From positions 1,240,001 through 1,304,000 of the forward strand of contig NZ_CP059060.1 in assembly GCF_014217875.1 (NCBI RefSeq): a stretch of 64,000 bases of DNA, read 5' to 3'. This document shows, one piece after another, positions 5,936 through 25,052 of this stretch. Made by a program: the position numbers and the translations under genes. The notes under the pieces were generated by a model. It saw nothing but the letters and a program-made list of their open reading frames with translations, was not told the origin of the DNA and ran no database searches. The DNA is from Synechococcus sp. LTW-R. GTDB taxonomy: Bacteria > Cyanobacteriota > Cyanobacteriia > PCC-6307 > Cyanobiaceae. Positions within the stretch are counted from its first letter, which is position 1. The number at the start of each line of letters is the position of its first letter.

Positions 5936-6793
5936 ATGCAGGGCGCTGAACCCGCTGCAGGCGTGCTCTATCTGGTGGGCACCCCGATCGGGAACACCGG
6001 GGACCTCTCCCCCAGGGCCAAAACCGTTCTGGCCGGGGCGGATCGCATTGCCTGCGAAGACACCCGCCGCAGCGGCCTCTTGCTGCACAACCTGGGCATC
6101 AAGAACCGGTTGGTGAGCTTCCACGAGCACAACCAGGCCACCCGCATCCCGGAATTACTGGAGGCCCTGGAAAACGGCGAAGCGATCGCGGTGATCAGCG
6201 ACGCCGGCCTGCCGGGCATCTCAGACCCGGGGGAGGAGCTGGTGACGGCGGCCCGCCAGCAGGGGCGCACGGTGATCTGCGTGCCGGGCCCCTGTGCGGC
6301 GACGACAGCCCTGGTGAGCAGTGGGCTGCCCTGCGGCCGCTTCTGCTTTGAGGGCTTCCTGCCGCCGAAGACCACGGCCCGGCGAACCCGGCTGCTGGCC
6401 TTAGCCCCGGAGGAGCGCACCCTGGTCTTCTACGAGGCCCCCCACCGTCTGCTGACGGTGCTCGAAGACCTGCTGGAGCTGCTCGGGGATCGCCCCATCG
6501 CGGTGACCCGGGAACTGACCAAACGCCATGAAGAGCAGGTGGGCCCGAGCGTGTCGGTGGCCCTGGCGCACTTCCGCGAGCACCCACCCCAAGGGGAATT
6601 CACCCTGGTGCTCGGCGGAGCGGAGGTCAGCGCTAGCGAACGCCCCAGCGATGCCGACCTGCGCGAGCAGCTCAAGGCCCTCGTGGAGGGCGGCTTGAGC
6701 CGCAACGATGCCGCACGCCAACTGGCCCGGAGCACGGGCATCGCCAAACGTGAGCTCTACGCTTTGCTGCATCAAGACGACGACACCCCCTGA
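5936..6793 (+). CDS. rsmI: 16S rRNA 2'-O-ribose C1402 methyltransferase
   Basis: SAM-dependent tetrapyrrole-methylase-fold enzyme that methylates C1402 in the ribosomal decoding centre. Near the N-terminus are 'LYLVGTPIGNTGDLSPRA' and 'CEDTRRSG', then 'SDAGLPGISDPGEELV' and 'VPGPCAATTAL', all diagnostic of RsmI. The length of 285 residues is normal. ATG 5936 (with GTG just upstream) places the glycine motif at the N-terminus. The stop overlaps the start of the next gene (TGATG), so the two are probably co-translated. Confidence 0.93.
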   Translation: MQGAEPAAGVLYLVGTPIGNTGDLSPRAKTVLAGADRIACEDTRRSGLLLHNLGIKNRLVSFHEHNQATRIPELLEALENGEAIAVISDAGLPGISDPGEELVTAARQQGRTVICVPGPCAATTALVSSGLPCGRFCFEGFLPPKTTARRTRLLALAPEERTLVFYEAPHRLLTVLEDLLELLGDRPIAVTRELTKRHEEQVGPSVSVALAHFREHPPQGEFTLVLGGAEVSASERPSDADLREQLKALVEGGLSRNDAARQLARSTGIAKRELYALLHQDDDTP

Positions 6794-7035
6794 TGCTGCT
6801 GCGCCTGCGCCTGCTTCTGGCCAGCCTTGGCGGTGGGGTGCTGCTGCTGTTGATCCTCTGTCTGGGCGCCCAGAACCTCGATCAACGCACCCGGCTCAAC
6901 CTGGGCTTTGGCCGCACGGCTGAGCTCCCCACCGGATTCCTCTTGGGGGTCTCCCTGGTGATTGGGGTGATCAGCGGCGGTGCCGCAAGCGCCCTACTGG
7001 TCCCCGGCCGGGATCAGGCTTCCGGCAGGGAATAA
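6793..7035 (+). CDS. Small LapA/DUF1049-like two-helix membrane protein
   Basis: An 80-residue protein with two predicted membrane helices (about residues 5-26 and 48-70) joined by a short loop 'NLDQRTRLNLGFGRTAELPTG'. The pattern resembles the LapA/DUF1049 family of small inner-membrane proteins, whose role in cyanobacteria is not established. It overlaps the rsmI stop by one base and its 3' end overlaps the convergent HTH gene by 22 bases. Confidence 0.6.
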   Translation: MLLRLRLLLASLGGGVLLLLILCLGAQNLDQRTRLNLGFGRTAELPTGFLLGVSLVIGVISGGAASALLVPGRDQASGRE

Positions 7036-7745
7036 AGCAGGCCGCCTTCCACCACCAGGCGGGTGATGCCCTGGGCCACCAGGTAGGAAGAACGGCGCTG
7101 CAGCACGTCGCTGTCGGGCACCTTGATCACGCGCTGGCTGCGACCGCACTGGCGCTTGGCCTGACGGGGGTTCGTGAAGAGCATCAGGGCCTGGCGGGCC
7201 TGCTCGGTTTCCGGCAGGGAGCCGAGCTCCGGGAATTCATTCAGGGGCTTGGCCTGAAGCTCCACGGCCTTGTCCACGAGCATGTAGACGCTGCTGGGCA
7301 GCAGGCCTGGGAGCAGGGGGATCGGATCGATCAGCTCAGCCGCTGCCGCCGCGCCGAAGGCGGTCGTCTCGGCGCTGTCATCGCCGTCGTCGAAGGTCTC
7401 GTCGTCGCCGTCATCGCCGAAGTCATCGGCGTCATCGATCGCCAGAACACCGGCGTCCTCGTCCGCCTCGTCGTCTGACGGGTTGGCCTCATCCAGGACG
7501 TGGGCCGAGGCGGGCTCGGAAGCCGGGGTCTCGACCTCCACCTCGCTCGGCTTGGCGGCGGAGCGACTGCGGGATTGCTTTTTGAGCGAGGCGAGTTCGT
7601 CGGGATCGATCCCGGCCTTCAGCACACGGCTGACCGTGTTCGGGCTGCAGCCATAGCTCGCCGCCAGGGCCTGGGCGGTCTCGCCCTGGCGGTAACGAGC
7701 GACCAGCTCCTCTTTTTGGCTTTCGCTCAGCCGTGGAGCGGGCAT
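7014..7745 (-). CDS. HTH-domain protein with long acidic linker, function unknown
   Basis: A 243-residue protein. Residues about 5-45 form a homeodomain-like helix-turn-helix (SESQKEELVARYRQGETAQA, then SYGCSPNTVSRVLKAG). A lysine/serine-rich stretch and an extremely acidic linker (about residues 90-140, many D and E) follow. The C-terminal 100 residues look globular and end 'LVAQGITRLVVEGGLLYSLPEA'. I chose ATG 7745 because the frame upstream runs antisense through the tRNA gene. It may be a DNA-binding regulator, but the targets are unknown. It is divergent from tRNA-Arg. Confidence 0.6.
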   Translation of the reverse strand: MPAPRLSESQKEELVARYRQGETAQALAASYGCSPNTVSRVLKAGIDPDELASLKKQSRSRSAAKPSEVEVETPASEPASAHVLDEANPSDDEADEDAGVLAIDDADDFGDDGDDETFDDGDDSAETTAFGAAAAAELIDPIPLLPGLLPSSVYMLVDKAVELQAKPLNEFPELGSLPETEQARQALMLFTNPRQAKRQCGRSQRVIKVPDSDVLQRRSSYLVAQGITRLVVEGGLLYSLPEA

Positions 7746-7813
7746 GACGACATCGATGTCCAGCACACCACCATAGAAGCCTTGGCTCAGCTGGCACAAT
7801 GCGTCAGATCCAA

Positions 7814-7887
7814 GCTCCCTTAGCTCAGCTGGATAGAGCAGCTGCCTTCTAAGCAGCCGGTCGTTGGTTCGAATCCAACAGGGGGCG
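7814..7887 (+). tRNA. tRNA-Arg (anticodon UCU)
   Basis: A complete 74-nt cloverleaf. The acceptor strand GCTCCCT pairs with AGGGGGC. The D arm is AGCTCAGCTGGATAGAGC, the anticodon arm has loop CTTCTAA (anticodon TCT), and the T arm contains GGTTCGAATCC. The 3' CCA is not encoded. It is the integration site of the adjacent element, which rebuilds the 3' part exactly and keeps the tRNA functional. Confidence 0.95.
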
Positions 7888-7888
7888 T
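7840..7888 (+). repeat. Left attachment core (in the functional tRNA-Arg)
   Basis: A 49-bp core starts in the anticodon arm and ends one base past the tRNA. It is identical to 16899-16947, with different sequence on both outer sides. Confidence 0.95.
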
Positions 7889-8003
7889 AAGCAGACACGT
7901 TGCGGCATCTGGGGTTTCTACTCAGGTGCCGCAATGCTTTTCAGAGACACGTCTCAGCCTGCGAGACAGGTCAGAAGCCTTGTGGAGCCGTCAGAGCCCG
8001 TCA

Positions 8004-8034
8004 TAATTTCACGCAGATTTCACGCGGCGTGAAA
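8004..8034. promoter_or_regulatory. Left arm-type integrase/Xis sites upstream of the integrase gene
   Basis: Two tandem ATTTCACGC units 2 bp apart are followed immediately by an inverted GCGTGAAA, ending at the integrase start codon. The first 22 bases (8004-8025) recur exactly at 16821-16842 near the right end, in the same orientation. Position and duplication fit arm-type recombinase sites; the inverted unit next to the ATG could also let the protein repress its own gene. Confidence 0.65.
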
Positions 8035-9225
8035 ATGGCTCGGCCTGAGTGGCTCGCCCGGCTCTCCAAGAGCTTCAAGGCTCACCGACAGGGTCGATCC
8101 GGCTGGAACGTGGAGGTCATGCGCGACCGCCTGCGGGTGGTGTCGGCCGAGCTACCACCAAGACCAGACGAACCCGCCGACGCTCCGACGAAGCGCCGGG
8201 CCGTCACCCTCAAAACAGCACCAGGCCCCGCCAACGGCACCGAGGCTCTCGCCGAAGCGAGCGCGATCTTCGATTCCGTCATAGCCGGCACGTGGAGGTG
8301 GCCAGACCCCGACGGCCTCGACGCTGATGACGCTGGCCGCCTGAGCCCCAAATCCCTACAAGCCCTCGTCGACCGACTTGAGGCAAAGGTGGTCAACGAG
8401 CGCGTCGTCCCACGAACCTGGAAACGGACCTACGTCCAGTACTTCCGACGCCTGCTGGAAGTCGCCGGAAGCAGAGCCTGGCAGTCAGACACGGACCTAC
8501 TGACTGAGACGCTGCGCCACTGGAAGCCCAACAGCCGGTCGCGGCAGCAAGCTCACGACCGCTTTCGCACCCTATTTAAGGAAGCCGGCTGGGGATGGCC
8601 CGAGAGCGTCCTTGAGATGCGCGGCAACGGAAAGGCAGCCGCACCCGTAGCAGGGGTGAAGGGCTTCACCGCCGCCGAAAGCCTCGAACTACGAGAGCGG
8701 ATTAAGCGGAGCAAGCTCGGCCCCGAGTCCGCAGTGGCGTGGGACCTCATGGCGGCCTTCGGGATCCGCCCAGCCGAACTAAAAGGAATAACCCTGCGAA
8801 AGCACGGCGCCTCTCTGGTTGCAGTGGTGAAGCGCGAGAGGACCACCCTGAGAGGGAAGGAGGCCTACAGGGAAGTTCCCGCCGCTCCCCCAGAAGGGTG
8901 GCCCGCCGACTGCTTTGACCTCGCGGCGCGACTCGAAAAACACGGTCTTCCACCGCGATGGATGAACATGCCCGACCCCAGCGATCCGATGGGGCAGCAA
9001 CTGAAGCGCCTGCACAAGCGGGCCGCCGTCAACGTCGAGATCGACCCCGATCTCACTCCGTACGGGCACCGTCACGCCTTTGCACTTCGGCTGGCGACGC
9101 TTGGATGCAGCTACAGGGAAAGCGCGGACCTGATGGGACACAGCCCAGCGACCCACCTACTGATTTATGGCCAAGTGCTTGACACCCCGAAGCTGATCGA
9201 CAAGGTCCTCGCAGCCCAGGCCTGA
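8035..9225 (+). CDS. int: Tyrosine recombinase (integrase) of the tRNA-Arg element
   Basis: Catalyses site-specific integration and excision between the tRNA-Arg core sequences. The 396 residues end in a tyrosine-recombinase catalytic domain. Box I Arg is in GIRPAEL (about residue 244), box II is YGHRHAFALRL (about 343-353), LMGHS follows, and the nucleophile Tyr is in HLLIYGQ (about residue 378). The usual box II HxxR histidine appears as Tyr, with the RH pair kept. The N-terminal half is lysine/arginine-rich and probably binds arm sites. ATG 8035 lies directly after the arm repeats; the frame is open further upstream only as read-through of the att region. Confidence 0.9.
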   Translation: MARPEWLARLSKSFKAHRQGRSGWNVEVMRDRLRVVSAELPPRPDEPADAPTKRRAVTLKTAPGPANGTEALAEASAIFDSVIAGTWRWPDPDGLDADDAGRLSPKSLQALVDRLEAKVVNERVVPRTWKRTYVQYFRRLLEVAGSRAWQSDTDLLTETLRHWKPNSRSRQQAHDRFRTLFKEAGWGWPESVLEMRGNGKAAAPVAGVKGFTAAESLELRERIKRSKLGPESAVAWDLMAAFGIRPAELKGITLRKHGASLVAVVKRERTTLRGKEAYREVPAAPPEGWPADCFDLAARLEKHGLPPRWMNMPDPSDPMGQQLKRLHKRAAVNVEIDPDLTPYGHRHAFALRLATLGCSYRESADLMGHSPATHLLIYGQVLDTPKLIDKVLAAQA

Positions 9226-9521
9226 GATCCCGAGCGACTAAGCACAGAGAATTAAAGACATACTTAATCGAGTTGTAGTACATCCTATTTCGAGACGATT
9301 GAGGCCCCAGAAATAGGTCTCGCCGCTTTGCATTTGCTCTACTTATTGAAGGACTCAGACGGCTTCTGAAGGCCTCTGAAGGTGCTTACTCTTATCGCAG
9401 CCACTAGAGCAATCATCTCTGCTCTGAATTACCAGAAGGTGGCGCCCTTCCGAACTGGTTCTTCCAGGGGTTATCGCAAGTTGCTTCACATGCTGCCTCT
9501 AGCAACCCTCTCGGAGACTTC
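9226..9521. other. Non-coding gap between integrase and replication operon
   Basis: About 300 bases without a convincing gene, more AT-rich than the flanks. It contains short direct repeats (TCTGAAGG twice near 9365-9385). It is the most likely place for the operon promoter and possibly a replication origin, but nothing there is proven. Confidence 0.35.
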
Positions 9522-9728
9522 ATGTCTTTCTCGTCCACAACAGCGGAGTTAATTAGGAAAACCGGCCTAAGTGACTCAACCCTCTATCGCCTCCGTAAAG
9601 AAGGCGTACTGCGGCCTGGCCGGGATTACCGCGCTAACGGCTATGGCACCAAACAGCCAAAGCTGGCCTGGGATCCCGAGGCTGTCGATAAGACCCTGAC
9701 CCTGCGAAGCAAGCGCGTCCTCGCATGA
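9522..9728 (+). CDS. Small HTH protein, excisionase (AlpA/Xis)-like
   Basis: A 68-residue protein with a winged-helix-like pattern: 'ELIRKTGLSDSTLYRLRKEG', then 'LRPGRDYRANGYG' and 'LAWDPEAVDKTL'. This is the layout of small excisionase and AlpA-type DNA-binding proteins that bind helix-turn-helix first and use a short wing. It starts the replication operon: its TGA overlaps the primpol ATG (ATGA). A relative of the same pattern is encoded at 13045-13251 on the other strand. Confidence 0.7.
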   Translation: MSFSSTTAELIRKTGLSDSTLYRLRKEGVLRPGRDYRANGYGTKQPKLAWDPEAVDKTLTLRSKRVLA

Positions 9729-10753
9729 AAAAGCCCCCTATCCCGGGGGCCAATTCGACTCCTTGCCGCCAAGCCGTGGAGTCTGGTGCCCCGAAGGACA
9801 AATGCCACCCCAAATCTAGTGGGGTCCTTGATGCTTCATCGACACTATTGAGCCATGAGGGAATCGAAGCCTCAGAACTCGACCGCCTCGATTGCTTGCT
9901 TCCATTCGGGCGGGAGCTGCTGCCCCTAGGGGGACATAAGAACCCTGTTGAGACGAACTGGCCAGAACGAGAGGACTACCCACCGGCACGGCTTCGATTC
10001 GATAAGCGGACAAGGGCTGTTGGCCTAAAGACAACCGGGCCGTTGCTCTGCTTTGACCTCGATGGTCCAGAGGCCGTGGCTTACGCCCAGCAGGAATTAG
10101 GGCTCGGCTGGCCTTGTTGGCACGTCGGTCGAACTGATACGGAGGAACGCTTCAAGCTCGTCTGCGTCCCGAGCCCAGAGCAGTGGGCGCAGTTGCCTGC
10201 CCCCGGGCTGATCCTCAAAAAATCAGTTGCAGCGCCGGTGCGCGATGCCGACAACAAGGTCGTCTTTAAGGGGCAAGCCATCGAAGTTTTCTCCGATCGG
10301 CGCCGTCAGATCGCTGTATGGGGTGAGCACCCTGATGGTGGTCGTTACTGCTGGCCCACGGGCCGAGGTCCCGAACTAGCGATCAACCCGCCGCCCGCAC
10401 CTTGGTGGGATTTGGTTCTGGAGCTGCATCGGGAGCGAGCCCAACAGGCCCAGCCCAGTTCCGTACGTTCAGGAACAACCCGCTTAGACCCTTGTCCAAT
10501 CTGCGGCCGTAACAGCTCCGATACCGGGCTGTGGTGTGAGGAGACGGCAGAAGGCTTGGTTCTCTGTATGCCAGGCCAAACCTTCAATGCCGAGCTGAGT
10601 CACGGCCGTCTTGAGCTCGGCTCTGTTGTTGATGGCTGGGCTCTGAAGAAGCGAACTCCGATCGCAGAGGGAGACGTTCTGACCTTCGGGCTGCATCAAC
10701 CGAGCTTCATCGAAAACCTTCGTCGGCGCATGCGCGCTGCTGCCCGTACATGA
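9725..10753 (+). CDS. Primase-polymerase (AEP superfamily) with C-terminal zinc motif
   Basis: Probable bifunctional DNA primase/polymerase that starts element replication together with the downstream helicase. Of 342 residues, the 'LPLGGHKNPVETNW' stretch (about 67-80) and the acidic pair in LLCFDLDG (D111 and D113) match the N-terminal primpol catalytic core. 'EERFKLVCV' and 'IEVFSDRRRQIAVWGEHP' follow in the expected order. A CPICGR motif near residue 258 begins a possible zinc finger. It overlaps both neighbours by ATGA. The first codons contain a strong hairpin that reads as a terminator on the opposite strand. Confidence 0.78.
   Translation: MKKPPIPGANSTPCRQAVESGAPKDKCHPKSSGVLDASSTLLSHEGIEASELDRLDCLLPFGRELLPLGGHKNPVETNWPEREDYPPARLRFDKRTRAVGLKTTGPLLCFDLDGPEAVAYAQQELGLGWPCWHVGRTDTEERFKLVCVPSPEQWAQLPAPGLILKKSVAAPVRDADNKVVFKGQAIEVFSDRRRQIAVWGEHPDGGRYCWPTGRGPELAINPPPAPWWDLVLELHRERAQQAQPSSVRSGTTRLDPCPICGRNSSDTGLWCEETAEGLVLCMPGQTFNAELSHGRLELGSVVDGWALKKRTPIAEGDVLTFGLHQPSFIENLRRRMRAAART
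9728..9750 (-). terminator. Reverse-strand intrinsic terminator embedded in the primpol start
   Basis: On the minus strand the GCCCCC/GGGGGC stem with a 6-nt loop is followed by TTTTT, running into the primpol start codon. It would stop antisense transcription entering the excisionase gene; on the plus strand the hairpin lies immediately after the start codon. Confidence 0.6.
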
Positions 10754-12204
10754 CCTACCGACATCCTCTTCTTGAGGGCTTCCCTGAAAGTGAGCAGGAT
10801 CAGACGAACCCGCCTCACCCTTTACAGCCGGGCGAGCTGGCTCAGCACCTGAGAGATACGTTTGGGGAAAGGCTCCGCTTCAACTCTCTCATCGATGGCG
10901 TTTGGCTTGATGAGCGCCCAGTTACTGCAATAGAGCTTGACTGCTTTTTCGTCTACCTGAGTGGATTGGGTTTCAAAATTGACCCCAAAAGAGCCTCGTC
11001 AACTGTTGTAACTGTTGCTAGAGAACACACCTTTTCCCCAGTTTGTGAGTTTCTCAAGCAGCTCAAAGACGACCCCGGTATCGATCCAATTAACATCGCT
11101 ACCGTTGCTAAGGACTATTTAGGTCTCGAGGATCCGCTCGACTCTTCAATCCTCCGGACAATGTTGATTGGAGCGGTCGCGAGGGCACTTAATCCAGGTT
11201 CCAAGTTCGACACCGTTCTCGTTCTTGTTGGTCGACAGGGCATACGTAAGTCGACATGGCTTCGCAATCTGTTCTCTGATGCGTGGTTCAACGACACTCC
11301 ACAGCGGGATGACCGCGACATGCGCATGGCGATGCACAGCTGTTGGGCAATGGAGCTGGCAGAGCTTGAAACCGTCACCGGCAAAAGAGCTTCTGGAGAG
11401 CTAAAGGCCTTGATCAGTAGTCCTACAGATCGCTTCCGCAAGCCTTATGGCGCTGTGGTTGAGGTCTTCCCACGTCCTTCAATCCTGGTGGCGTCATGCA
11501 ATCGAAACGACTTCCTTCCCGACACGACAGGTAGCCGTCGATTTCACGTCGTCTCGCTGCCTGACACTCCACTCGATACGGAGAAGGTCGCTCGCGATCG
11601 CTGCCGTATCTGGAAGGCAGCACTGTTGGAATACGAAAAAGGCACACAGCCTTATCTTGGATCGGCGGAATCGGCGCTTATCGAGCGTCGCAACTCCAAC
11701 TTCAGTACAGAGCTGATGTTTGAGAGTCAGCTTTCAGCTTGGCTTGACGGGGTCTATACGATCGCCAGTGGCATCACTCACAAATTCCCCCCAATAACCA
11801 AGCCTTTTTCGACCGAACAGGCTTTACAGCGATCAGGTTGTCGCCAATCACCGAGCATTGTCGAGCTCAGGCAGGCTTGTGAGGCGCTCCGGAGTCTTGG
11901 CTGCGTTCAAGAGCAGTTTCGTTACCAAGGCGTTAAGGGCAGATGGTGGAAGCGGCCGTCACTCGTCTCCGCTGGCAGCCCTGGGGGTGGGACACCCCAA
12001 AACGAAGGCCAAACCAGCAATCTGGGCTTCTTGTCCCACTGTCCCAACACAAATCAAAAAGAGAACTCAAAGAAAGTTCCTGGTACGGAAGAAGGTCGAG
12101 AGTTGGCTCCCGCCGGCGGGACACCCGGGACACGGGACATATGGGAGGCATTCAGCCCAGTCGACCCCCCTGCTGATTGGAGGCTTGGCCGAGAGGGCGA
12201 TTAG
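10750..12204 (+). CDS. VirE-family (DUF5906/SF3-like) replicative helicase
   Basis: Probable ATP-driven helicase that works with the primpol in element replication. Of 484 residues, the P-loop is GRQGIRKST (161-169; families usually have GIGKS). A Walker B-like MELAELE is near 200, and the sensor-like 'CNRNDFLPDTTGSRRF' is near 250-265. The C-terminal 100 residues are proline- and glycine-rich and look disordered. Two truncated relatives occur at 21240 and 24181. The ATG overlaps the primpol stop, and the 3' end overlaps the convergent tail-like gene by 4 bases. Confidence 0.82.
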   Translation: MTYRHPLLEGFPESEQDQTNPPHPLQPGELAQHLRDTFGERLRFNSLIDGVWLDERPVTAIELDCFFVYLSGLGFKIDPKRASSTVVTVAREHTFSPVCEFLKQLKDDPGIDPINIATVAKDYLGLEDPLDSSILRTMLIGAVARALNPGSKFDTVLVLVGRQGIRKSTWLRNLFSDAWFNDTPQRDDRDMRMAMHSCWAMELAELETVTGKRASGELKALISSPTDRFRKPYGAVVEVFPRPSILVASCNRNDFLPDTTGSRRFHVVSLPDTPLDTEKVARDRCRIWKAALLEYEKGTQPYLGSAESALIERRNSNFSTELMFESQLSAWLDGVYTIASGITHKFPPITKPFSTEQALQRSGCRQSPSIVELRQACEALRSLGCVQEQFRYQGVKGRWWKRPSLVSAGSPGGGTPQNEGQTSNLGFLSHCPNTNQKENSKKVPGTEEGRELAPAGGTPGTRDIWEAFSPVDPPADWRLGREGD

Positions 12205-12917
12205 CGGCCTAAAGCCTGCTTCAGCCGCTTGCTGAGCATCGTTGGGATGTGATCGGCGGCTTCCTCCTCGATCAGCTTCGCGAACGGGAACTTCGGCGTC
12301 ACGGTTGGCGGGGTGTCGGCTAAGGCCATCAGCTGGCTGAGGGTCTTTGCTTTGCGGTGATACACGCCGGGTTGGAGGTGTCCGCCCGGCTTTTCACTTG
12401 GTACGACAAAGAATTTGTGGGGGCCTTTGCTGGGGCCGGCCATTTCGAGTGCGTTGAGGCTGCCAAGGACGCGGGTGTAGACGCTCGGCCTCAAATTGCC
12501 GCGACTGGTCAGCCCCAGCAATTGCGCCGCACGGCTTCGCTCGTTTGGGATAGCTACGCCGCGGGTGATGCCCCGCCGATCCAGTGCGCCACTGAAGCGG
12601 CCGATCTTGATCTGCTTCCGTGTCGCACCGCCTTCAGCAACTTGGGGGAACAGATAGGCCGCCGGTGACGTGCCTTTAACCGCAACGTCGTTTACACCGA
12701 TCGTGACCTCAAGATCGCCCATCTTGAAGTACGGGCTGCGGGTAGTGAATGGGACCGGGTTGTCGAACTCCTTGCGCATCTCCTCCGCGAGGAACCGCTT
12801 GGCATAAAAGCCAAAGTCCTTCAGGGCACGGTTCGCAGCGTAGGGCAGCTGAACTTTTTCGAGGACATCAAGTTCGTGCAGGATGCCCTTGAGGTCGAAT
12901 TCGACATGTTGTCGCAT
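12201..12917 (-). CDS. Phage tail/virion-like protein (gp10/minor-tail-like), tentative
   Basis: A 238-residue basic protein starting MRQHVEFDLKGILHELD. The stretch 'LPYAANRALKDFGFYAKRFLAEEM' followed by 'FTTRSPYF' resembles minor tail or HK97-gp10-like proteins, where an early 'A..AL..T' helix precedes a threonine/proline-rich turn. I recognise the pattern only loosely. It faces the capsid gene across two tiny genes and is transcribed the opposite way to it, so it has its own promoter, near 12930. Confidence 0.5.
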   Translation of the reverse strand: MRQHVEFDLKGILHELDVLEKVQLPYAANRALKDFGFYAKRFLAEEMRKEFDNPVPFTTRSPYFKMGDLEVTIGVNDVAVKGTSPAAYLFPQVAEGGATRKQIKIGRFSGALDRRGITRGVAIPNERSRAAQLLGLTSRGNLRPSVYTRVLGSLNALEMAGPSKGPHKFFVVPSEKPGGHLQPGVYHRKAKTLSQLMALADTPPTVTPKFPFAKLIEEEAADHIPTMLSKRLKQALGR

Positions 12918-12954
12918 TGTTTCCTATTGTTTCTTCAATACTAGGAACAAATCA

Positions 12955-13131
12955 ATGACGTTCTTTGACGACGACACTCCTATCCAGTCGGGTCCTGTTG
13001 ATGATTCCTTGCTGAGCCCTCAGGCAAGGCGCTACCTGGCTTCTCTAGCCGCCGACCGCAAGCGCAGTGCGGTGTTTGAGAGCAACTTCAACTGCGCTGG
13101 GATTCCACATCAGCGGAGCCTTAGCGCCTGA
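12955..13131 (+). CDS. Small hypothetical protein
   Basis: A 58-residue reading frame, MTFFDDDTPIQSGPVDDSLL..., with AGGA eight bases before its ATG. It is divergent from the tail-like gene. Its 3' half overlaps the HTH gene on the other strand, so one of the two may not be expressed. No family is recognised. Confidence 0.4.
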   Translation: MTFFDDDTPIQSGPVDDSLLSPQARRYLASLAADRKRSAVFESNFNCAGIPHQRSLSA

Positions 13132-13251
13132 TCCGCGCTTGATAAAGTGAGCGCCGGGCAGCAGGATTCCTGCTTCGCGCATCCTCAGAAGACTGCGAGG
13201 GTGACAACCCAGGTGCACACTCATCTCGTCATTGGTCAACCAATCAGTCAT
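13045..13251 (-). CDS. Second small HTH protein, excisionase/regulator-like
   Basis: A 68-residue protein, 'MTDWLTNDEMSVHLGCHPRS' then 'LLRMREAGILLPGAHFIKRG' and 'LMWNPSAVEVAL'. It has the same helix-wing layout and length as the protein at 9522-9728, with clear correspondence of 'GILLPG..' to 'GVLRPG..' and 'WNPSAVE' to 'WDPEAVD'. It may be a directionality factor or a repressor of the capsid-side promoter. It starts about 80 bp before the divergent capsid gene. Confidence 0.6.
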   Translation of the reverse strand: MTDWLTNDEMSVHLGCHPRSLLRMREAGILLPGAHFIKRGSGAKAPLMWNPSAVEVALKHRTALAVGG

Positions 13252-13333
13252 CTCTAGTCGCCGATACTGTCATTTCTATTATGGCTCGCTCGCTATAGTA
13301 ATTGCATTGAAGTCGGCCCACCTGGCTTGATCA

Positions 13334-14353
13334 ATGAAAAACGCATATAACGGCGCATTCGATATCTTCGCTTTGGTCGAGAGTCAGCGTCGTGGTGCTG
13401 ACCCTTCCCTGGCCAAACGAGAGCGCGGAATTCTCGAAGTATTGGCCCAAAACAACCCTGAGGTGCGCACCCGTGGAGGCGTTCCGCTCCCTACGCAAAC
13501 TCAGGCTCGTGATTTGCAGCTGTCGACTGCAACTTCTGGCGGCAACCTTGGCAATAGCGCTTTGCTCGATGTGGCTGGCGCTGCTCGCCCCGCGACTGTT
13601 CTCGAACGGTTAGGCGCTCCGGTGGTGCAGTTGCGCCAAGCCGCGGAGGGTGCTCTGCCTGTGTTGGCGGGTACGCCCTCCGGGATGTGGATCAGCGCCG
13701 AGGGTGGCGCCATTCCACAGTTCGATCCCACCATCAACAGCGCGCTCCTAACGGCGCACGAGGCCAGCGTCCGACTCAGCTACAGCCGCCGACTGGCTGC
13801 AATGAGCGAGGACCGAGCTGCTCTGCAGGCTGATTTGCTGCGGGAGCTCGGCCAGATCATGGCTTCCACGCTCGAGGAAGGCTTCATCAAAGGCACGGGC
13901 AGCGAGGGGCAGCCCCTCGGCTTGCTGAATGTGACCGGCCGCCAAACCAAGAGTTTTGCTGGCGCGACCCCCACTTGGGCTGAGCTCACCGCGATGCTCG
14001 AGCAGCTGGGTGATGCCGATGCCCGGCTTGAGAGTGCGGCGTGGCTCCTGCACCCCTCCACGGCGGCCGACCTGATGGCGACCGAGAAAAGCTCGGGCTC
14101 TGGTCAGTACGTCCTGGAATACGACGGTGGCTACCGGATCGCAGGCCGCCCGGTCGGCATCACAAGCACGATCACGGAAGACACAGTCCTCTTGGCCGAC
14201 ATGAGCAAGCTGCGGCTGGTGTTCTTCGCGGCACCCCAGCTTCTGGTGGATCGCTACAGCCACAGCACGACCGGCGCCGTCCAGCTGGTGGTCTCGAACT
14301 ACACGGATATCGCAGTGACTTCAGGGCCAATGATCGTGGTCGGGTCCATATGA
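13334..14353 (+). CDS. HK97-fold phage major capsid protein
   Basis: A 339-residue shell protein. The N-terminal 80 residues look like a short scaffolding-type arm. The core then follows the HK97 capsid family: 'VLERLGAPVVQLRQ', 'MWISAEGGAIPQFDPTINS', 'FIKGTGSEGQPLGLLNV', 'WLLHPSTAADLM', 'IAGRPVGITSTI', 'VLLADMSKLRLVF', and a C-terminal beta strand ending 'GPMIVVGSI'. No protease, portal or large terminase gene is visible nearby. If made, the protein would have to assemble alone or mix with a helper phage's packaging machinery. Confidence 0.85.
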   Translation: MKNAYNGAFDIFALVESQRRGADPSLAKRERGILEVLAQNNPEVRTRGGVPLPTQTQARDLQLSTATSGGNLGNSALLDVAGAARPATVLERLGAPVVQLRQAAEGALPVLAGTPSGMWISAEGGAIPQFDPTINSALLTAHEASVRLSYSRRLAAMSEDRAALQADLLRELGQIMASTLEEGFIKGTGSEGQPLGLLNVTGRQTKSFAGATPTWAELTAMLEQLGDADARLESAAWLLHPSTAADLMATEKSSGSGQYVLEYDGGYRIAGRPVGITSTITEDTVLLADMSKLRLVFFAAPQLLVDRYSHSTTGAVQLVVSNYTDIAVTSGPMIVVGSI

Positions 14354-14467
14354 CCTGATCACCGCCCGCCAGGCGTGTCGGGTGAGTGCGGCCGATCCAT
14401 TGCGGGGGTGGGCCAACCGGGGGCTGGTGTCGGCTGGCCCCCACCACACATTCCTTTGGGGCGAACC

Positions 14468-14671
14468 ATGTTTCAACGAGCTGAAACCCTCCGTCAGGGC
14501 TGGATTGCCGACCATGTGGCCCGTACTGCCTTTGGGCTGTCCAACGCTGAGTGGAAACGCGCCGCCGAGCTGATGGATGCCGACGGTGCGATCAGGTGCC
14601 CAAGGAAGGGGTGGCCCGTTGAAGCGCTCGGCCTCGCAGTCCGTCGGATCAAGTTGGAGCGGGGGCTGTGA
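14468..14671 (+). CDS. Small hypothetical protein of the element
   Basis: A 67-residue protein beginning MFQRAETLRQGWIADHVART. It is helical, with 'LSNAEWKRAAELMDADGAIR' resembling a short DNA-binding or adaptor domain, though not recognised as a family. It follows the capsid gene by about 115 bp, and its TGA overlaps the GTG of the next frame (GTGA), which suggests co-translation. Confidence 0.45.
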   Translation: MFQRAETLRQGWIADHVARTAFGLSNAEWKRAAELMDADGAIRCPRKGWPVEALGLAVRRIKLERGL

Positions 14672-14847
14672 ATTGGGTCACCGCCTACTGCGATCAGCAG
14701 CAGAAGCCAGCTCGTTTCGAGAAGCCCGATCCTGCGGTTGAGCGCCTACAAGAGAACCTCAGCCGGTGGTCAGGCTCAAGGCTCTGGGCAGGGTTCCAAA
14801 AAATCGGGCTGATTGCGAGGGTTTGGGAGGTCACTCACCTCTCATGA
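14668..14847 (+). CDS. Small hypothetical protein, translationally coupled
   Basis: A 59-residue frame from GTG 14668 (VNWVTAYCDQQQKPARFEKP...) that overlaps the preceding stop by GTGA and ends just inside the convergent secreted-protein gene. The start overlap is the main support; there is no recognisable domain. Confidence 0.4.
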   Translation: MNWVTAYCDQQQKPARFEKPDPAVERLQENLSRWSGSRLWAGFQKIGLIARVWEVTHLS

Positions 14848-15376
14848 GTTGTTCGACGTTCGACTTGTCGGTTTCATTCCTTCCGGAATCGACAACGTAA
14901 CCGCCCGGATCACAGGCTTGGAAAGCAAGTTGATCGGTGTATTCATAACCAGGAATCGTTTCTGTTTGGCAAATGCCCTGCCTGAACCACCTATACCGCT
15001 GCAAAAAGCCGTTCTTGTCAGGTGCATTCTGTGTAATGCTGCCACCATTCTTGATCACTTTGCAGCCTCTATCGCTCCAGAAACGACCTTCCTGCCATAG
15101 CTTCTTGTCATTCCCTAGGTCAACTACATAACCCTTATTGTTCTTTGAAGTGGCCGTGAGCGTTACGAATTTGCCTCTCAAGGACGTAATGCAGTTTGTA
15201 ATGCTTTTCTTTTTGCATTCCTTGTAAGCCAGGTCAGGCGAGAGCCCCATCTCGCCGGCCATTTCTGCCATGCACGCCTTAAGCGCAGTCAAATCGGCGG
15301 CAAGTACCGGGGTACTTATCGCGGCGGCTGTCACTAGCGGCGTGACAAGCAATGTCAGCTTTCCTCTGGCGCTCAT
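14831..15376 (-). CDS. Secreted cysteine-rich protein, function unknown
   Basis: A 181-residue protein with a signal peptide (MSARGKLTLLVTPLVTAAAISTPVLA, cleavage near residue 26). The mature part has about seven cysteines, which suggests disulphides in the periplasm or outside the cell, and two similar stretches 'GYVVDLGNDKKLW' and 'GYVVDSGRNETDK' that hint at an internal duplication. It lies between capsid-side genes and the secreted nuclease, so it is probably cargo. No family is recognised. Confidence 0.6.
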   Translation of the reverse strand: MSARGKLTLLVTPLVTAAAISTPVLAADLTALKACMAEMAGEMGLSPDLAYKECKKKSITNCITSLRGKFVTLTATSKNNKGYVVDLGNDKKLWQEGRFWSDRGCKVIKNGGSITQNAPDKNGFLQRYRWFRQGICQTETIPGYEYTDQLAFQACDPGGYVVDSGRNETDKSNVEQLMRGE

Positions 15377-15453
15377 GGTGGATCCAGCTCAGATTTAAAC
15401 GCTACACAATTAGCTCTGAGCGCCCTAGAGGCCGGCAGGGTCAGGCTGATCTG

Positions 15454-15843
15454 ATGAAGCGTGCTCCTCTCCTTCTGGTTTTGGCCCTGGTGGGGTGCGG
15501 AGGCCAAGCCAGCGCTCTGCCCAGCGTCACCATCAGCAGTTGCTACGACGGCGATACCTGCCGCACGACCGAAGGCGAGAAGGTCCGGCTGGCTTGCATC
15601 GACACCCCGGAGCTGAGGGGCAGAAATGCTGATCCTTTGCCGGCCAAGGCTGCTCGCGACTATCTCCGCAGCAGGGTGGTCGGCAAGACCGTTCTGATTC
15701 GGCGAGTCGACACTGACCGCTACGGCAGGACCGTGGGCGATCTCTACCTGAAGCCCTTTGAGTCAGTTGGGCTTGATCTGGTCCGCAGTGGCCATGCGGC
15801 TGTCCTTCAGCGCTACGCCAAGCAGTGCCCGTGGGCTGATTGA
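15454..15843 (+). CDS. Thermonuclease-family (SNase-like) secreted nuclease
   Basis: A 129-residue protein with a lipoprotein-like leader (LLLVLALVGCGG, Cys near residue 15). The staphylococcal-nuclease fold is seen in YDGDTCR, 'VRLACIDTPELRG', 'KAARDYLRSRVVGKTV' and 'DRYGRTVGDLYL'. These carry the family's catalytic Arg and metal-binding Asp positions. It is probably a calcium-dependent nuclease acting outside the cytoplasm, either for nucleic-acid scavenging or against competing DNA. It is an accessory gene of the element. Confidence 0.82.
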   Translation: MKRAPLLLVLALVGCGGQASALPSVTISSCYDGDTCRTTEGEKVRLACIDTPELRGRNADPLPAKAARDYLRSRVVGKTVLIRRVDTDRYGRTVGDLYLKPFESVGLDLVRSGHAAVLQRYAKQCPWAD

Positions 15844-15932
15844 TCTAGCGCTAGCCACCGTCAAGACTTTTGACGTTCACTGCTGCGTCTTTCGACTGCG
15901 AGCTAGATAAACATCACTAGTAACGCTTAGCC

Positions 15933-16331
15933 ATGGGCTTTATTCGCTGGAGCTGGGAAAACTACTGGCTCATGTGGAGGAAATCTTTCGACTTCCGTGG
16001 AGTAACGCCTCGGAACCAGTACTGGGCGTTTTTCCTCGTAGAGATGGTTTTGATATTTGGTTGTCTTCTATTGTTCGGCCTCGCGACCTATGTAGTTGGG
16101 CAAGGAGAGCCAATAACTGGGACCCCTTGGGAGCCGTTCTTCCAATTCCTCTTTGTGATTTACTTCATCTTTTTTATTGGTTCGTTTGTGCCTTTTCTTT
16201 CTTGTCAGGTAAGGCGCATTAGGGATGCGAGTGGCCGCGGACTCTGGATACTGCTTGGCCTCATACCTTATGCCGGAGGCCTTGCCTTGACAGTCATCAC
16301 GCTTTATCCAACCCGCAAGAGTCTTAAGTAG
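15933..16331 (+). CDS. DUF805-family membrane protein
   Basis: A 132-residue protein with three to four membrane segments. It has the DUF805 signature: 'SFDFRGVTPRNQYWAFFL' at the N-terminus and 'VRRIRDASGRGLWILLGLIP' near residues 93-112. The function of the family is not known; it occurs often in accessory regions of bacteria and phage-related elements. GC content is lower than in the flanking core genes. Confidence 0.75.
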   Translation: MGFIRWSWENYWLMWRKSFDFRGVTPRNQYWAFFLVEMVLIFGCLLLFGLATYVVGQGEPITGTPWEPFFQFLFVIYFIFFIGSFVPFLSCQVRRIRDASGRGLWILLGLIPYAGGLALTVITLYPTRKSLK

Positions 16332-16478
16332 GGGGAAGTGCTGGCGAATCTGCAGCTACCTTGTAGCCGTAAAACATGCGAGGTATGTCGAGCCGCGCCG
16401 TTAAATCAGATATTGCGCCGACAACTACTACAAGTGGCGCCGACTAAGCTATAAAAACCCCTTCCCCAATGTAATTCG

Positions 16479-16823
16479 GTGCAACTGATCACCATTACTG
16501 AGGCTGCTGCAATCCTGGGGCGCGATCCATCGACAATTAGCCGCGCGGTTGCGTCGGGGCGGCTGTCCTTCGCTTCTGGTACTCGGATGCTGGAGCGTGA
16601 TGGCATCGAGCAGCGCTTCGCGGCCCGCACCCGTCCCCGGATTGACCGTCCCTTGGCCAGAGGCCCTGAAAGGCCCCTCGAAGGGCTCGAGTGGTGGGAT
16701 GCGTGCGCCGCCAGGCTCAGCGGCTACCTGGACCCTTCCTGCGGCGTGTGGCCTCGCCTGAGCGGCGCTCAGCTGGCTGTCTTTGTGGGCTGCATAGAAA
16801 TGGCCGCCGATGAAATCCCGTAA
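16479..16823 (+). CDS. HTH protein at the right end of the element
   Basis: A 114-residue protein from GTG 16479. The N-terminal helix-turn-helix 'ITEAAAILGRDPSTISRAVA' and 'GRLSFASGTRMLERDGIEQRF' resemble MerR/Xis or Nu1-type (small terminase) DNA-binding domains. The remainder, with 'EGLEWWDACAARL', is not recognised. It could be a regulator or a packaging-recognition protein. Its stop codon falls inside the right arm repeat. Confidence 0.55.
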   Translation: MQLITITEAAAILGRDPSTISRAVASGRLSFASGTRMLERDGIEQRFAARTRPRIDRPLARGPERPLEGLEWWDACAARLSGYLDPSCGVWPRLSGAQLAVFVGCIEMAADEIP

Positions 16824-16842
16824 TTTCACGCAGATTTCACGC
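16821..16842. promoter_or_regulatory. Right arm-type repeat
   Basis: A 22-bp sequence with two tandem ATTTCACGC units, identical to 8004-8025 and in the same orientation. It lies 57 bp inside the right attachment core, compared with 116 bp inside the left one. Confidence 0.65.
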
Positions 16843-16898
16843 AACCGGCTCGACACTCAGTGAGATCCACTGCTCCACAGCGGGTTTGCGCTTAGAGA

Positions 16899-16947
16899 AG
16901 CTGCCTTCTAAGCAGCCGGTCGTTGGTTCGAATCCAACAGGGGGCGT
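16899..16947 (+). repeat. Right attachment core (tRNA-Arg 3' remnant)
   Basis: An exact 49-bp copy of the tRNA-Arg 3' part. The acceptor 5' strand and D arm are missing, so it is not a tRNA gene. The stop codon of the convergent core gene begins at the very next base. Confidence 0.95.
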
Positions 16948-19659: not shown

Positions 19660-20003
19660 CGGAGAAATGGTGGGGTCGGAGCTTCTGAAGGAGGCACACC
19701 TGGGGCCAAAGGTCCAGGTGTCGAGCGGTGGGTCTCCTGGGGCACCTCAGGCGGTGCAGACGGAGTGCCGACAGCTCAGACGTGCAATTGGTGTCCGATC
19801 TGACGGCCCGCTCACAAGCGGTAGAAGACTGTTGGAGCAGGGGCCTTCGGTCAGCTCGCTCCTGGTGACTGGTTCGGTGGAGTGTCGGTCAAATCCGCCT
19901 CCGAGATCGATGAACCCAGCATCAAGGGAACCGAGGCCAAGGGCAATCGGGGTTCATACCCATTGCGTCCAGCTCCTCTCCGATTGAGAGTGGGCGATTG
20001 CCG
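19660..20003. other. Gene-free stretch
   Basis: About 340 bases in which I see no convincing gene on either strand, no tRNA and no strong hairpin. It includes GGT/GGC-rich short repeats near 19700-19760. Confidence 0.4.
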
Positions 20004-20444
20004 TCAGCGCAGGTCCTGGTCGCCGACTGAGGCCTCATCGGTGCGGCCCAACACCGCCTCGCCATCGGTGTAGTGCTTGAACTCCAGCCAGTTCGCGCTG
20101 GGGTCTTGCACAAAGAAGGTGTGATGCTCCAGCGGCCCTCCGGCGTAGCGGCACTTCGGCATCACCGCGAACGGACATCCCTGCGCGACCAGCTGATCGC
20201 GGAGCTGCTCCCAACGGGCCAACGTCGCAAAGACCAATCCGAAATGACGGGGATAAATCCCGACCTGCGGCAGCTCCTCGAGCCCCGGCGTGGATTGCAG
20301 GACCAACTGATGACCCTCGAAGTCGAGGATCGCGGCCTGATCACTGCGGCGTCCCGGCCGGCAGCCCAAGGTCCCGACGTACCAGTCGTGGCTGCGTTGC
20401 AAATCGACCGCCGGGATCGAAAGGTGAAAGCAAGGGCGCTCCAC
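20004..20444 (-). CDS. VOC-superfamily (glyoxalase/dioxygenase-like) protein
   Basis: A 146-residue metal-dependent fold of paired beta-alpha-beta-beta-beta modules. 'CFHLSIPAVDLQRSHDWYVG' opens the first module with a metal-ligand His. 'PLEHHTFFVQDPSANWLEFK' closes the second with His and Glu ligands. The substrate is unknown. GTG 20444 gives the family's normal length; further upstream the frame runs into the Cys-rich gene. The two genes are 10 bp apart and probably co-transcribed. Confidence 0.75.
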   Translation of the reverse strand: MERPCFHLSIPAVDLQRSHDWYVGTLGCRPGRRSDQAAILDFEGHQLVLQSTPGLEELPQVGIYPRHFGLVFATLARWEQLRDQLVAQGCPFAVMPKCRYAGGPLEHHTFFVQDPSANWLEFKHYTDGEAVLGRTDEASVGDQDLR

Positions 20445-20454
20445 CGTTCGCGGC

Positions 20455-20613
20455 CTAGCCCAGCACCGGCTTACAGAAGCGACCGCTGCAGCCCTGCCAG
20501 AACTGGGCATAGGGACTCAGGAGCGCGCCATGCAAGCTGCAAAATCCATGGCAGCTCGGATCCCCTTTGAGATAGGGACAACCCGAGCAGTGGAGCTGCA
20601 GTTGAGAGCGCAT
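20455..20613 (-). CDS. Small cysteine-rich protein
   Basis: About 52 residues: 'MRSQLQLHCSGCPYLKGDPS' followed by 'CHGFCSLHG' and 'GCSGRFCKPVLG'. Six or more cysteines in CxxC-like spacing suggest a metal or Fe-S site. The frame also opens upstream from 20676. It is immediately upstream of the VOC gene on the same strand. The product is not recognised. Confidence 0.5.
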   Translation of the reverse strand: MRSQLQLHCSGCPYLKGDPSCHGFCSLHGALLSPYAQFWQGCSGRFCKPVLG

Positions 20614-20824
20614 GGAGGCGAGATGAAGATCTCCCTTGGTGCCATGGGCAGGGACGGCGTGGGGAGAGTGGAACACGAACTTGTCCCCTTCAGGTGCGTA
20701 TCCCCGGTCTAGGAACGCTCTTGGGTTCCGGCCAACGGAAAGGAGGGAATCCAGACGCGAGCCTCCAGCCGGGGTGGCCGCAGTCCGGATCGATGGCTAC
20801 GACGGAACCAGTCGAAGCGATGCA

Positions 20825-20944
20825 GTGGAAGACGGACTCTTAGGGCTCGCCGGGCTCGTGATCCTCTTGGCCCTGGCCGGTTTTGGACTGCAGGAACTGG
20901 CCGTTGAACTCCGCAATGCCCAGGACCACCCCTCCACGGAATAA
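20825..20944 (+). CDS. Possible one-helix membrane peptide
   Basis: A 39-residue frame from GTG 20825. One strongly hydrophobic helix (LLGLAGLVILLALAGFGLQE) is followed by 'LAVELRNAQDHPSTE'. It is too short to assign, and no clear ribosome binding site decides the start. Confidence 0.35.
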   Translation: MEDGLLGLAGLVILLALAGFGLQELAVELRNAQDHPSTE

Positions 20945-20983
20945 CGCCGCGGCCGACTGGGGCACCTCGGCGCTAAAGGTGGG

Positions 20984-21187
20984 ATGGATGCCGCCCGATC
21001 CATGGCCCTTCAGCGACTGCGCTCGATCAAAAAGCGCCTGATTCAATCAATGGACCGCCTCACCCAGGGGGGCTCCAAACGGGCCAAGACCAAACGGATC
21101 ATCAGCCAGAAAAGCCAGGAGGCCTACGAGGTGGTCTGCGGTGTGGCCGGTTGCGTCCTCAAAAAACGAGACGCGCCCAAGACGTAA
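20984..21187 (+). CDS. Conserved small basic protein, function unknown
   Basis: A 67-residue lysine/arginine-rich protein ('RLRSIKKRLIQSMDRLTQGG', 'SQEAYEVVCGVAGCVLKKR'). It is followed by a strong terminator, which supports it as a real gene. It is the last core-type gene before foreign DNA begins. No domain is recognised. Confidence 0.5.
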   Translation: MDAARSMALQRLRSIKKRLIQSMDRLTQGGSKRAKTKRIISQKSQEAYEVVCGVAGCVLKKRDAPKT

Positions 21188-21208
21188 GTCGACCCATCGG
21201 ACTGTTCA

Positions 21209-21235
21209 CCGCGGCGGGAAGCCGCGGTTTTTTTT
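21209..21235 (+). terminator. Intrinsic terminator
   Basis: A perfect 7-bp stem (CCGCGGC/GCCGCGG) with a GGGAA loop and eight T residues. The truncated VirE gene starts four bases after the T-run, so the element fragment was joined at or next to this terminator. Confidence 0.9.
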
Positions 21236-21239
21236 GCCG

Positions 21240-22070
21240 ATGACGAAGATCACAGCGGCCTTCTTCAAGCGGTACCTGGTCTCTGCAGTGCAGCGGGTCT
21301 ACGAACCCGGTTGCCCGCAGAGGATCTTGCCCGTTTTGGTCGGGCCGCAAGCCATCGGGAAAACCAGCTTGGGCACTGCATTATTCGGCGAGTTCTATGG
21401 CGATGCCGTCAGCGGCAACGCATCACTCGACGTTGATGACATCACAGCCATGTCTCTGACGTGGTGCACCGAACTGGCCGAGCTAGACGGCCTAACTCGG
21501 AAGGCTCAAACGTCTTCGCTGAAAGCCTTCGTCTCTCGCACGCACGACCTCATCAGGAGGAAGTACCACCACAGTTCGGAGCGCATCCCCAGACGAAGCG
21601 TGCTCTTTGGAACTTCCAACCTGTGGCCGCTGAATGACCCAACAGGGTCGACGAGGTTCTGCCTGATCTCGCTGGGCAAAAAACCACTCCCCTTCAACGA
21701 AGTCGCTCAGCTGCGCGACAACATTTGGGCGAGGGCTTTGGTCCAGTACCGCGACGGCTACCAGCCATTTCCAACCGCTCAAGAGGCCAAGGAAATTGCT
21801 GAACGCAATGCCTGTTACGACCCTGAGGATCCGCTTGAAGGCAAGCTCAGGCGCCTAGTCGAGCGAAAGGCGAGCGCGCCATACATCACGTTGGACGAAG
21901 TGCTCGATTTCATCGGCGCAGATCCAACAGGCTCGCCACAACTAAGCGCACGGCTCAATGTCGTTATGGCGCAACTGGGCTGGGACAAAAAGCGCCTCAG
22001 GTTAAACGGCCAAGGGAAAGTCTCTGCGTACTGGCCTACGGCCAGGGAGGGCAGGGATGAAAGCGCATAA
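21240..22070 (+). CDS. N-terminally truncated VirE/SF3-like helicase (copy 2)
   Basis: A 276-residue relative of the helicase at 10750. The P-loop GPQAIGKTS is at residues about 35-43 rather than 161, so roughly 125 N-terminal residues are missing. 'CTELAELDGLTRK' (Walker B-like) and 'LNDPTGSTRFCLISLG' follow in the same order as in copy 1. Sequence divergence shows it is not a recent duplicate. It probably belongs to a decayed element and may still be an intact ATPase module. Its end overlaps the next gene's start. Confidence 0.7.
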   Translation: MTKITAAFFKRYLVSAVQRVYEPGCPQRILPVLVGPQAIGKTSLGTALFGEFYGDAVSGNASLDVDDITAMSLTWCTELAELDGLTRKAQTSSLKAFVSRTHDLIRRKYHHSSERIPRRSVLFGTSNLWPLNDPTGSTRFCLISLGKKPLPFNEVAQLRDNIWARALVQYRDGYQPFPTAQEAKEIAERNACYDPEDPLEGKLRRLVERKASAPYITLDEVLDFIGADPTGSPQLSARLNVVMAQLGWDKKRLRLNGQGKVSAYWPTAREGRDESA

Positions 22071-22575
22071 CTCCCCTCACTACCTACCCCCTCTCTCTCC
22101 AGTTATGGACAAAACCCCTGTCCACCCTGTCCACCAATCAACTAATCCCATGAACTCAGAAGCACCTCTCATCAACCACCACCGCTTCACGGACTGCATC
22201 GGATCCCCCAGCCGCTACCGGCCAATCGATTCACGGCATCAGCTCATCGATCTCTACTTGGCGGTGAATAACCCCAACGCCAAATGGGAGACGGAGGAGA
22301 AATCAGCAGCCGACGATCGGCTAGACGCCTGGGAGTTCGACCTTGAGGAATACATCAGCAAGCATGACCGACTGCCCTGTGGATGCGAACACCGTCGACC
22401 AGGCTGGTTTGAGTACATGGATGAGCTGGTCATTGCGATCGGCCACAAGGGCAACTACCTGTGGAGGGTGGACCTAGATCGCAACGGCAACACCAAGGAC
22501 AGCGAGGTGTTCACGTCGCTTGAGAATGCCTGCATGTTTATCCAGGGCTTCAAGTACGAGGCTTCTCATTACTAG
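22057..22575 (+). CDS. Hypothetical protein linked to the helicase fragment
   Basis: Up to 172 residues from ATG 22057, which overlaps the helicase stop. The first 30 residues are low-complexity, so ATG 22105 or 22150 may be the real start. The C-terminal half looks like a compact domain ('AWEFDLEEYISKHDRLPCGC', 'GWFEYMDELVIAIGHKGNYLWRVDL'). No family is recognised; it is probably element-derived. Confidence 0.5.
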   Translation: MKAHNSPHYLPPLSPVMDKTPVHPVHQSTNPMNSEAPLINHHRFTDCIGSPSRYRPIDSRHQLIDLYLAVNNPNAKWETEEKSAADDRLDAWEFDLEEYISKHDRLPCGCEHRRPGWFEYMDELVIAIGHKGNYLWRVDLDRNGNTKDSEVFTSLENACMFIQGFKYEASHY

Positions 22576-22603
22576 ACATAGGGCCATCTGGCCCTAGTCC
22601 CTA

Positions 22604-22630
22604 CCCCCGGGGTTCGACCTCGGGGGCTTT
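22604..22630 (+). terminator. Probable terminator
   Basis: CCCCCG pairs with CGGGGG around an 11-nt loop, followed by CTTTCTT. A second perfect 7-bp hairpin (AGGGCCA/TGGCCCT) sits just upstream at 22580-22595. Confidence 0.6.
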
Positions 22631-22840
22631 CTTGTGACGTAACCAGCCTTACGGACCAGGCGTCTCAAAACCGCTGGCACAACAGCTCACCGACCCACTG
22701 CTCAGTAGCGGGGAGTGTTGAGGTGGGGGAGTTTGGCACTCCCCCGTCTCGGATCACGTAGGAACGACCACCGTGTCCTCAGCGGTTATGGCCTTAGTGT
22801 TGCCGTCAGTGCAAGGGGGTGGCACATCCACAATGAAGAG

Positions 22841-25034: not shown

Positions 25035-25052
25035 GATGTCGAGGAGGTTGCG

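Follow-up and report, generated by a model that had tools for sequence, protein, structure and literature searches.

Satellite tycheposons reportedly occur in Prochlorococcus. Here we describe an element of 9,059 bp that lies in the tRNA-Arg(UCU) gene of Synechococcus sp. LTW-R and carries a single capsid gene, within a stretch of 64,000 nucleotides (NZ_CP059060.1, 1,240,001 to 1,304,000; this whole stretch is hereafter the window, and coordinates count from its first letter). On balance, we favour its interpretation as an integrated phage satellite of picocyanobacteria which would replicate by itself and build its own shell, while borrowing portal, packaging motor and tail. Likened by description only, tycheposons are also small elements of picocyanobacterial tRNA genes with a tyrosine recombinase, replication genes and satellite-like variants; one of their traits, integration at a tRNA gene through such a recombinase, was found here too, and their recombinases reportedly form a deep-branching clade. 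The element differs in that its integrase clade occupies tRNA-Arg and tRNA-Val genes, and its capsid clade is without the protease fusion of relatives with small genomes.

Phage-inducible chromosomal islands (PICIs) of the Staphylococcus aureus pathogenicity island (SaPI) type and P4-like satellites have, to our knowledge, no major capsid gene. With the present element they share an integrase, a small helix-turn-helix (HTH) regulator, a primase or helicase, sometimes a small terminase subunit (TerS; in the element a protein weakly similar to it), and a similar size, but the element has a capsid gene and so falls outside these capsid-less modules, which remodel or redirect the capsid of their helper (PMC10690885). 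The capsid-forming PICIs (cf-PICIs) encode protease, portal, connectors, large terminase subunit (TerL), TerS and HNH proteins (PMC10690885); the element resembles them in being satellite-sized and in having its own HK97-type capsid protein, but no protease, portal, TerL or HNH gene was found in it, and by that definition it is not a cf-PICI. The phage-inducible chromosomal minimalist islands (PICMIs) of Vibrionaceae, which are marine and minimal, carry a comparable set of integrase, AlpA regulator and primase (PMC10803314), but have no capsid or packaging genes and integrate beside fis. Conversely, the Mulch and Flayer satellites of Streptomyces phages encode their own capsid genes (PMC10690885), with a full capsid and packaging repertoire and no primase gene, which is the reverse of the situation described here. 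A first-pass annotation of this DNA had judged the element unlike the well-described classes. This stands with respect to the cf-PICIs, but the element is not unique: a search for the same gene plan in relatives, which that annotation had proposed, found much of it in about twenty loci of the same bacterial family, in several genera and, in some cases, in Prochlorococcus-type genomes of 1.5-1.7 Mb.

Ends of the element and empty integration sites

The features that define the two ends are the following (L and G numbers, here and below, are our handles for loci and genomes).

7814-7887, plus strand: complete tRNA-Arg(UCU), the left attachment gene (ARAGORN, tRNA-Arg(tct))
7834-7888, plus strand: left core repeat, the tRNA 3' end (direct repeat, 54/55)
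8004-8034, plus strand: putative left arm-type site, TTTCACGC twice with an 11-bp period, and a third, inverted copy of the motif (GCGTGAAA) at 8027
8035-9225, plus strand: tyrosine integrase, 396 amino acids (aa) (PF00589, 3e-7)
16821-16842, plus strand: putative right arm-type site, an exact 22-bp repeat of 8004-8025
16893-16947, plus strand: right core repeat, the duplicated tRNA 3' end (direct repeat; joined-flank alignment to empty sites)

The core repeats are 55 bp long with one mismatch and 49 bp exact, and their start-to-start spacing of 9,059 bp gives the size of the element. Both the exact 49-bp duplication of the tRNA at the two ends and the integrase beside a restored, whole tRNA gene are as the first-pass annotation had described them. 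Elsewhere in the genome, the right core repeat matches only the left copy. The G+C content is 54-65% from 8 to 17 kb, compared with 65-68% in the neighbouring kilobases.

Both flanks were fused through one copy of the repeat and aligned to congeneric genomes. The fused flanks aligned unbroken to three of them (L070, 92.6% over 2,522 bp; L072, 85.5% over 2,843 bp; L071, 84.9% over 2,902 bp), and we therefore conclude that the site is empty in close relatives; the lack of an empty site in any of these had been named beforehand as grounds for giving up the satellite interpretation. In two further congeners (L073 and L074) the alignment spans the junction and is divergent farther downstream. Other occupants were found beside the same tRNA gene: another integrase with a virE-like gene in at least one congener (L075), and an excisionase-like HTH gene with a distant integrase in a second (L077).

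The 22-bp repeat (TAATTTCACGCAGATTTCACGC) is set in by 117 bp at the left end and by 78 bp at the right end; given what is known of the architecture of tyrosine recombinase systems, it looks like a pair of arm sites for the integrase. No other copy of the paired motif was found in the window, even at two mismatches, and shuffled sequences gave 0. Short direct repeats at near-identical distances occur in L133 (+129/-66) and L134 (+117/-81), one of which has TTTCACGC itself; 10-bp matches in these two loci are not above control. Long tandem-type repeats of other sequence, with a period of 11-12 bp, are present in L083 and L200. An exact arm repeat was discarded as a general property of the family: the window, L083 and L200 show it clearly, but it is weaker or absent in other elements. 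On these sequence grounds, the integration half of our account can be regarded as established.

Replication genes

Three genes downstream of the integrase are relevant to replication and excision.

9522-9728, plus strand: excisionase-like small HTH protein (xisA), 68 aa (weak HTH_17, MerR and AlpA matches)
9725-10753, plus strand: Prim-Pol-like primase, 342 aa (33% identity to an L093 protein; 1e-68 to a homologue in L201)
10750-12204, plus strand: VirE/VapE-type helicase, 484 aa (PF05272, 1.3e-56; phrog_1313 DNA helicase, 4.9e-56)

ATGA overlaps couple the HTH gene, the Prim-Pol-like gene and virE (9522-12204). The Prim-Pol-like protein has no direct Pfam or PHROG match; over 209 columns it aligns with the N-terminal part of the L093 protein, which is 851 aa long and matches PF09250 at its N-terminus (4.6e-9) together with PriCT_2. 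The 342-aa protein is, accordingly, assigned as Prim-Pol-like only indirectly, through this relative. Of the coupled Xis, primpol and VirE operon proposed at first, the ATGA coupling and VirE hold, but the primpol identity is indirect and Xis is better described as an excisionase-like HTH protein with weak matches. Replication by this pair is read from the identity of the genes.

Capsid gene and acidic peptide

The genes that may form the particle module are the following.

12955-13131, plus strand: conserved acidic peptide, 58 aa (core DDDxP...S-x-Q-x-R-R; profile matches near capsid genes)
13334-14353, plus strand: HK97-fold major capsid protein without protease, 339 aa (PF05065, 5.5e-24; TIGR01554, 2.4e-19)
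16479-16823, plus strand: HTH protein with weak similarity to TerS, 114 aa (phrog_57)

A Foldseek search with the capsid model (mean predicted local distance difference test, pLDDT, 72.5, with most of residues 1-75 unreliable) gave HK97-type capsids for all top matches, the best at 1e-18, among them those of phage R4C, HK97 and the cf-PICI EcCI2; sequence families and fold thus agree with the HK97-type capsid gene of the first-pass annotation. Among 400 genomes from the bacterial family, 27 have capsid relatives. In the capsid tree, protease-free proteins of about 330-400 aa, from the window element and six others, form one clade (support 100/97), and a second clade of 530-600 aa comprises 15 loci (support 100/99), with a fused S78-type protease in the members tested. 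Both clades stand apart from the eight phage capsids included; a separate recruitment of the two is suggested, with only eight phages sampled. The window capsid shares 46% identity with its nearest relative, of which a partial sequence was compared. Cyanosiphoviruses S-CBS1, S-CBS3 and S-LBS1 have some of the nearest phage capsid proteins (25-28% identity), but they are complete phages with a longer capsid polyprotein on a separate branch of the tree, and S-CBS3 has TerL and portal genes. Between close pairs of relatives, measured in the protease-fused clade, the ratio of nonsynonymous to synonymous substitution rates (dN/dS) of capsid genes is 0.10-0.25, and these genes therefore appear to be retained for a function.

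A profile of the acidic peptide was built from six members and found more loci, eleven at an E-value of 5e-5 or better, one of them a duplicate view. After one round, matches reached 1e-10 or better (most already in the profile) against noise at 0.25, and no shuffled protein scored below 0.5. Of the 22 capsid loci having enough sequence, 20 have the peptide next to the capsid gene or upstream of it, and in most protease-clade loci it overlaps or abuts the capsid start; L068 and L083 lack it, L063 encodes it on the opposite strand, and in L067 it is more than 1 kb distant. A whole-genome search detected it in 35 of the 400 genomes and revealed two new capsid loci (L190 and L196). A strict linkage to the capsid was rejected, since several elements have the peptide without a capsid gene, often still with an integrase or replicase. 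The peptides tested matched no PHROG family, and none was found in annotated phages. The peptide could serve as a scaffold, as a shell cement or as a regulator. With regard to the TerS-like protein, longer phrog_57 matches were obtained in related elements (L068, 1.8e-22; L093, 7.3e-21; L139, 2.7e-13).

Portal, terminase and tail genes

Fifty proteins, taken from five capsid elements with tRNA boundaries, were compared with all PHROGs; no portal, terminase or tail family was matched, and the named families were capsid, protease, integrase, helicase, primase/polymerase and ligase. Since the portal of a near cyanophage is of the lambda type, PF04860 alone would be an unfair test, and PF05136 and PF05876 were added; neither portal family (PF04860, PF05136) nor GpA terminase (PF05876) was found in the 22-23 capsid-bearing genomes, host included. 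The large-terminase profile (phrog_2) gave background ATPase scores in the host genome and nothing convincing; elsewhere, it matched clearly in G297 and moderately in G130, in neither case at a listed capsid locus. General scans of the element proteins (Pfam, PHROG, NCBIfam) returned no HNH match. Given the lack of portal and terminase matches in the host, no resident helper is visible to these profiles, and no certain tail gene could be recognised in the element or the host chromosome. No prophage-like structural cluster, comprising terminase, portal and tail genes, was found; the element has its own integration and replication genes and an incomplete set of virion genes, and is a satellite in the broad sense of the term.

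Family of related elements

At a cut-off of E at most 1e-30, the integrase clade was found in 25 of the 400 genomes, representing 10 genera, and includes Cyanobium sp. T1B-Tous at 58%. In nearly all loci retrieved the integrase adjoins tRNA-Arg(UCU) or tRNA-Val(UAC), the exceptions being L150, L155 and L157, which are fragments or contig ends with no tRNA found, and L068, with none in the stretch retrieved. The integrase is usually followed by a small HTH gene and often by a replication gene, the type of which varies. On the basis of exact tRNA-end repeats (41-51 nt), sixteen intact elements could be delimited, that of the window among them, with sizes of 5.3-12.8 kb; seven of them have capsid genes and measure 7.8-10.7 kb.

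Among the relatives, L062 was considered as a circular contig and rejected, as it has no terminal overlap; this capsid-bearing element of another genus contains a sigma-factor gene (1248-2003). Fragments of NAD-dependent DNA ligase of about 250 aa lie beside the integrase in protease-clade elements (L084, 2528-3280; L085, 11030-11779; L089, 5963-6724).

Proposed mode of life

According to the interpretation that we favour, the element would integrate at the 3' end of tRNA-Arg(UCU) by means of its own integrase, restoring the tRNA, and one or both HTH proteins would direct its excision. The Prim-Pol-like/VirE pair would replicate the excised circle, and the capsid protein, probably aided by the acidic peptide, would form a shell fit for a genome of about 9 kb. 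An infecting tailed phage would provide the portal around which this shell is assembled, the TerS-like HTH protein would tag satellite DNA for the packaging motor of the helper, and the helper would also supply the tail, lysis and, if needed, a protease. The first-pass annotation had proposed a mobile satellite that replicates by itself and borrows phage packaging. Mobility and the satellite plan are backed by the empty sites, the intact boundaries, the relatives and the lack of a portal or convincing TerL gene, but replication and borrowing are deduced; borrowed phage packaging appears the most economical explanation of the particle half.

Several observations weigh against this scheme. Neither a helper phage nor any excision, particle or expression was observed. 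Many relatives share the integrase or the peptide and have no detectable capsid gene, and the capsid is therefore not essential to the lifestyle. The TerS similarity of the 16479-16823 protein is restricted to its HTH (phrog_57, 4e-4), and no protease match was found among the element proteins in the Pfam, PHROG and NCBIfam scans. Finally, no close relative was found in phage or virome collections: megablast of the element against phages gave none, and the virome scan had no match to the capsid protein. The capsid alignment was too variable for scanning.

Alternative explanations

A lone capsid gene, lacking portal, large terminase and, in this clade, protease, could also belong to a satellite, or to a defence element, that uses its capsid protein and peptide to poison the shell of an infecting phage, by co-assembly or by a block, with carriage, if any, in unmodified helper particles. 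The many relatives without a detectable capsid gene and the peptide without capsid gene in several elements would fit this explanation. We consider it unlikely, however: TerS-family proteins occur in several relatives, the fused protease of the other capsid clade suggests shell maturation, and PADLOC gives no match beyond weak HTH and nuclease ones.

Less probable still is an island moved by vesicles, natural uptake or generalised transduction, with the capsid gene as cargo or as a nanocompartment-like shell. Encapsulins are also among the Foldseek matches and the element has cargo-like genes (thermonuclease, DUF805), but the best fold matches are phage and gene transfer agent capsids, the sequence families are phage head proteins, and TerS-family genes are present in related elements.

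A degraded prophage that kept its capsid gene by chance, as the phage-type capsid and phrog_1924 proteins might indicate, is very improbable in view of the intact ends and the empty sites, the reduced plan repeated across several genera with exact tRNA-end repeats, the purifying selection on capsid genes of relatives, and the lack of a portal in all 22-23 genomes.

Other genes of the element and neighbouring islands

The remaining genes of the element are the following.

12201-12917, minus strand: phrog_1924 protein ('minor tail'), 238 aa (5.4e-28)
13045-13251, minus strand: small HTH protein of 68 aa (xisB), its gene divergent from that of the capsid (HTH_17, 0.0014)
14468-14847, plus strand: two small open reading frames (ORFs) of 67 and 59 aa that follow the capsid gene (the 59-aa one recurs in L064)
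14831-15376, minus strand: 181-aa protein with no Pfam or NCBIfam match
15352-15843, plus strand: thermonuclease-like protein, 163 aa (PF00565, 2.8e-13)
15933-16331, plus strand: DUF805 membrane protein, 132 aa (PF05656, 1.1e-15)

The phrog_1924 protein, the acidic peptide, the second small HTH gene, the TerS-like HTH gene and the arm-type repeats had all been overlooked in the first-pass annotation. An HTH gene of the xisB type has the same position in L062-L065 and, by position only, in L067. In two virome contigs the phrog_1924 gene (L158 and L159, 9992-10708 in both) comes after an 832-aa primase-helicase-like gene, and the label 'minor tail protein' is therefore doubtful. A role as head-tail joiner was dropped, as the gene in L153, L154 and L158 has replication genes close by and not tail genes; its model (pLDDT 61, poor) had no fold match, and a test for head-tail connectors gave a weak phrog_27 match (0.063) in the element. 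Thermonuclease-like genes recur in or near L091, L139, L143, L144 and L076.

A second island, apparently decayed and of lower G+C, occupies 20000-39100 of the window beside the tmRNA gene (39015-39324). It contains a tyrosine-integrase-like ORF (37980-39062, minus strand) and broken VirE-like ORFs (21141-22070 and 24142-24906), identified by eye; a second copy of the tmRNA end was not found there. In addition, a decayed relative of the element is present in the same genome (G000:C1:280000-299000, L212), which has part of a capsid belonging to the protease-fused clade (6485-6853), two integrases, one HTH gene of excisionase-like type and two near-identical HTH genes (7553-7924 and 16059-16412).

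Significance

We put forward, only tentatively, that these elements constitute a distinct class, in which one capsid gene and a short upstream peptide are the minimal particle module, the peptide acting as scaffold or size determinant of the satellite's own shell built on a stolen helper portal, and two capsid clades, with and without protease, having been recruited to it. Some satellites reshape the shell of their helper and others make nearly all but the tail; a stable intermediate between the two that has a single capsid gene is not among the classes in the literature consulted for comparison. If true, it would show how little virus an element needs to control its own packaging. Picocyanobacteria are major aquatic primary producers, and the defined set of tRNA-borne elements, together with the marker peptide and the empty sites, offers a means to seek their helper phages.

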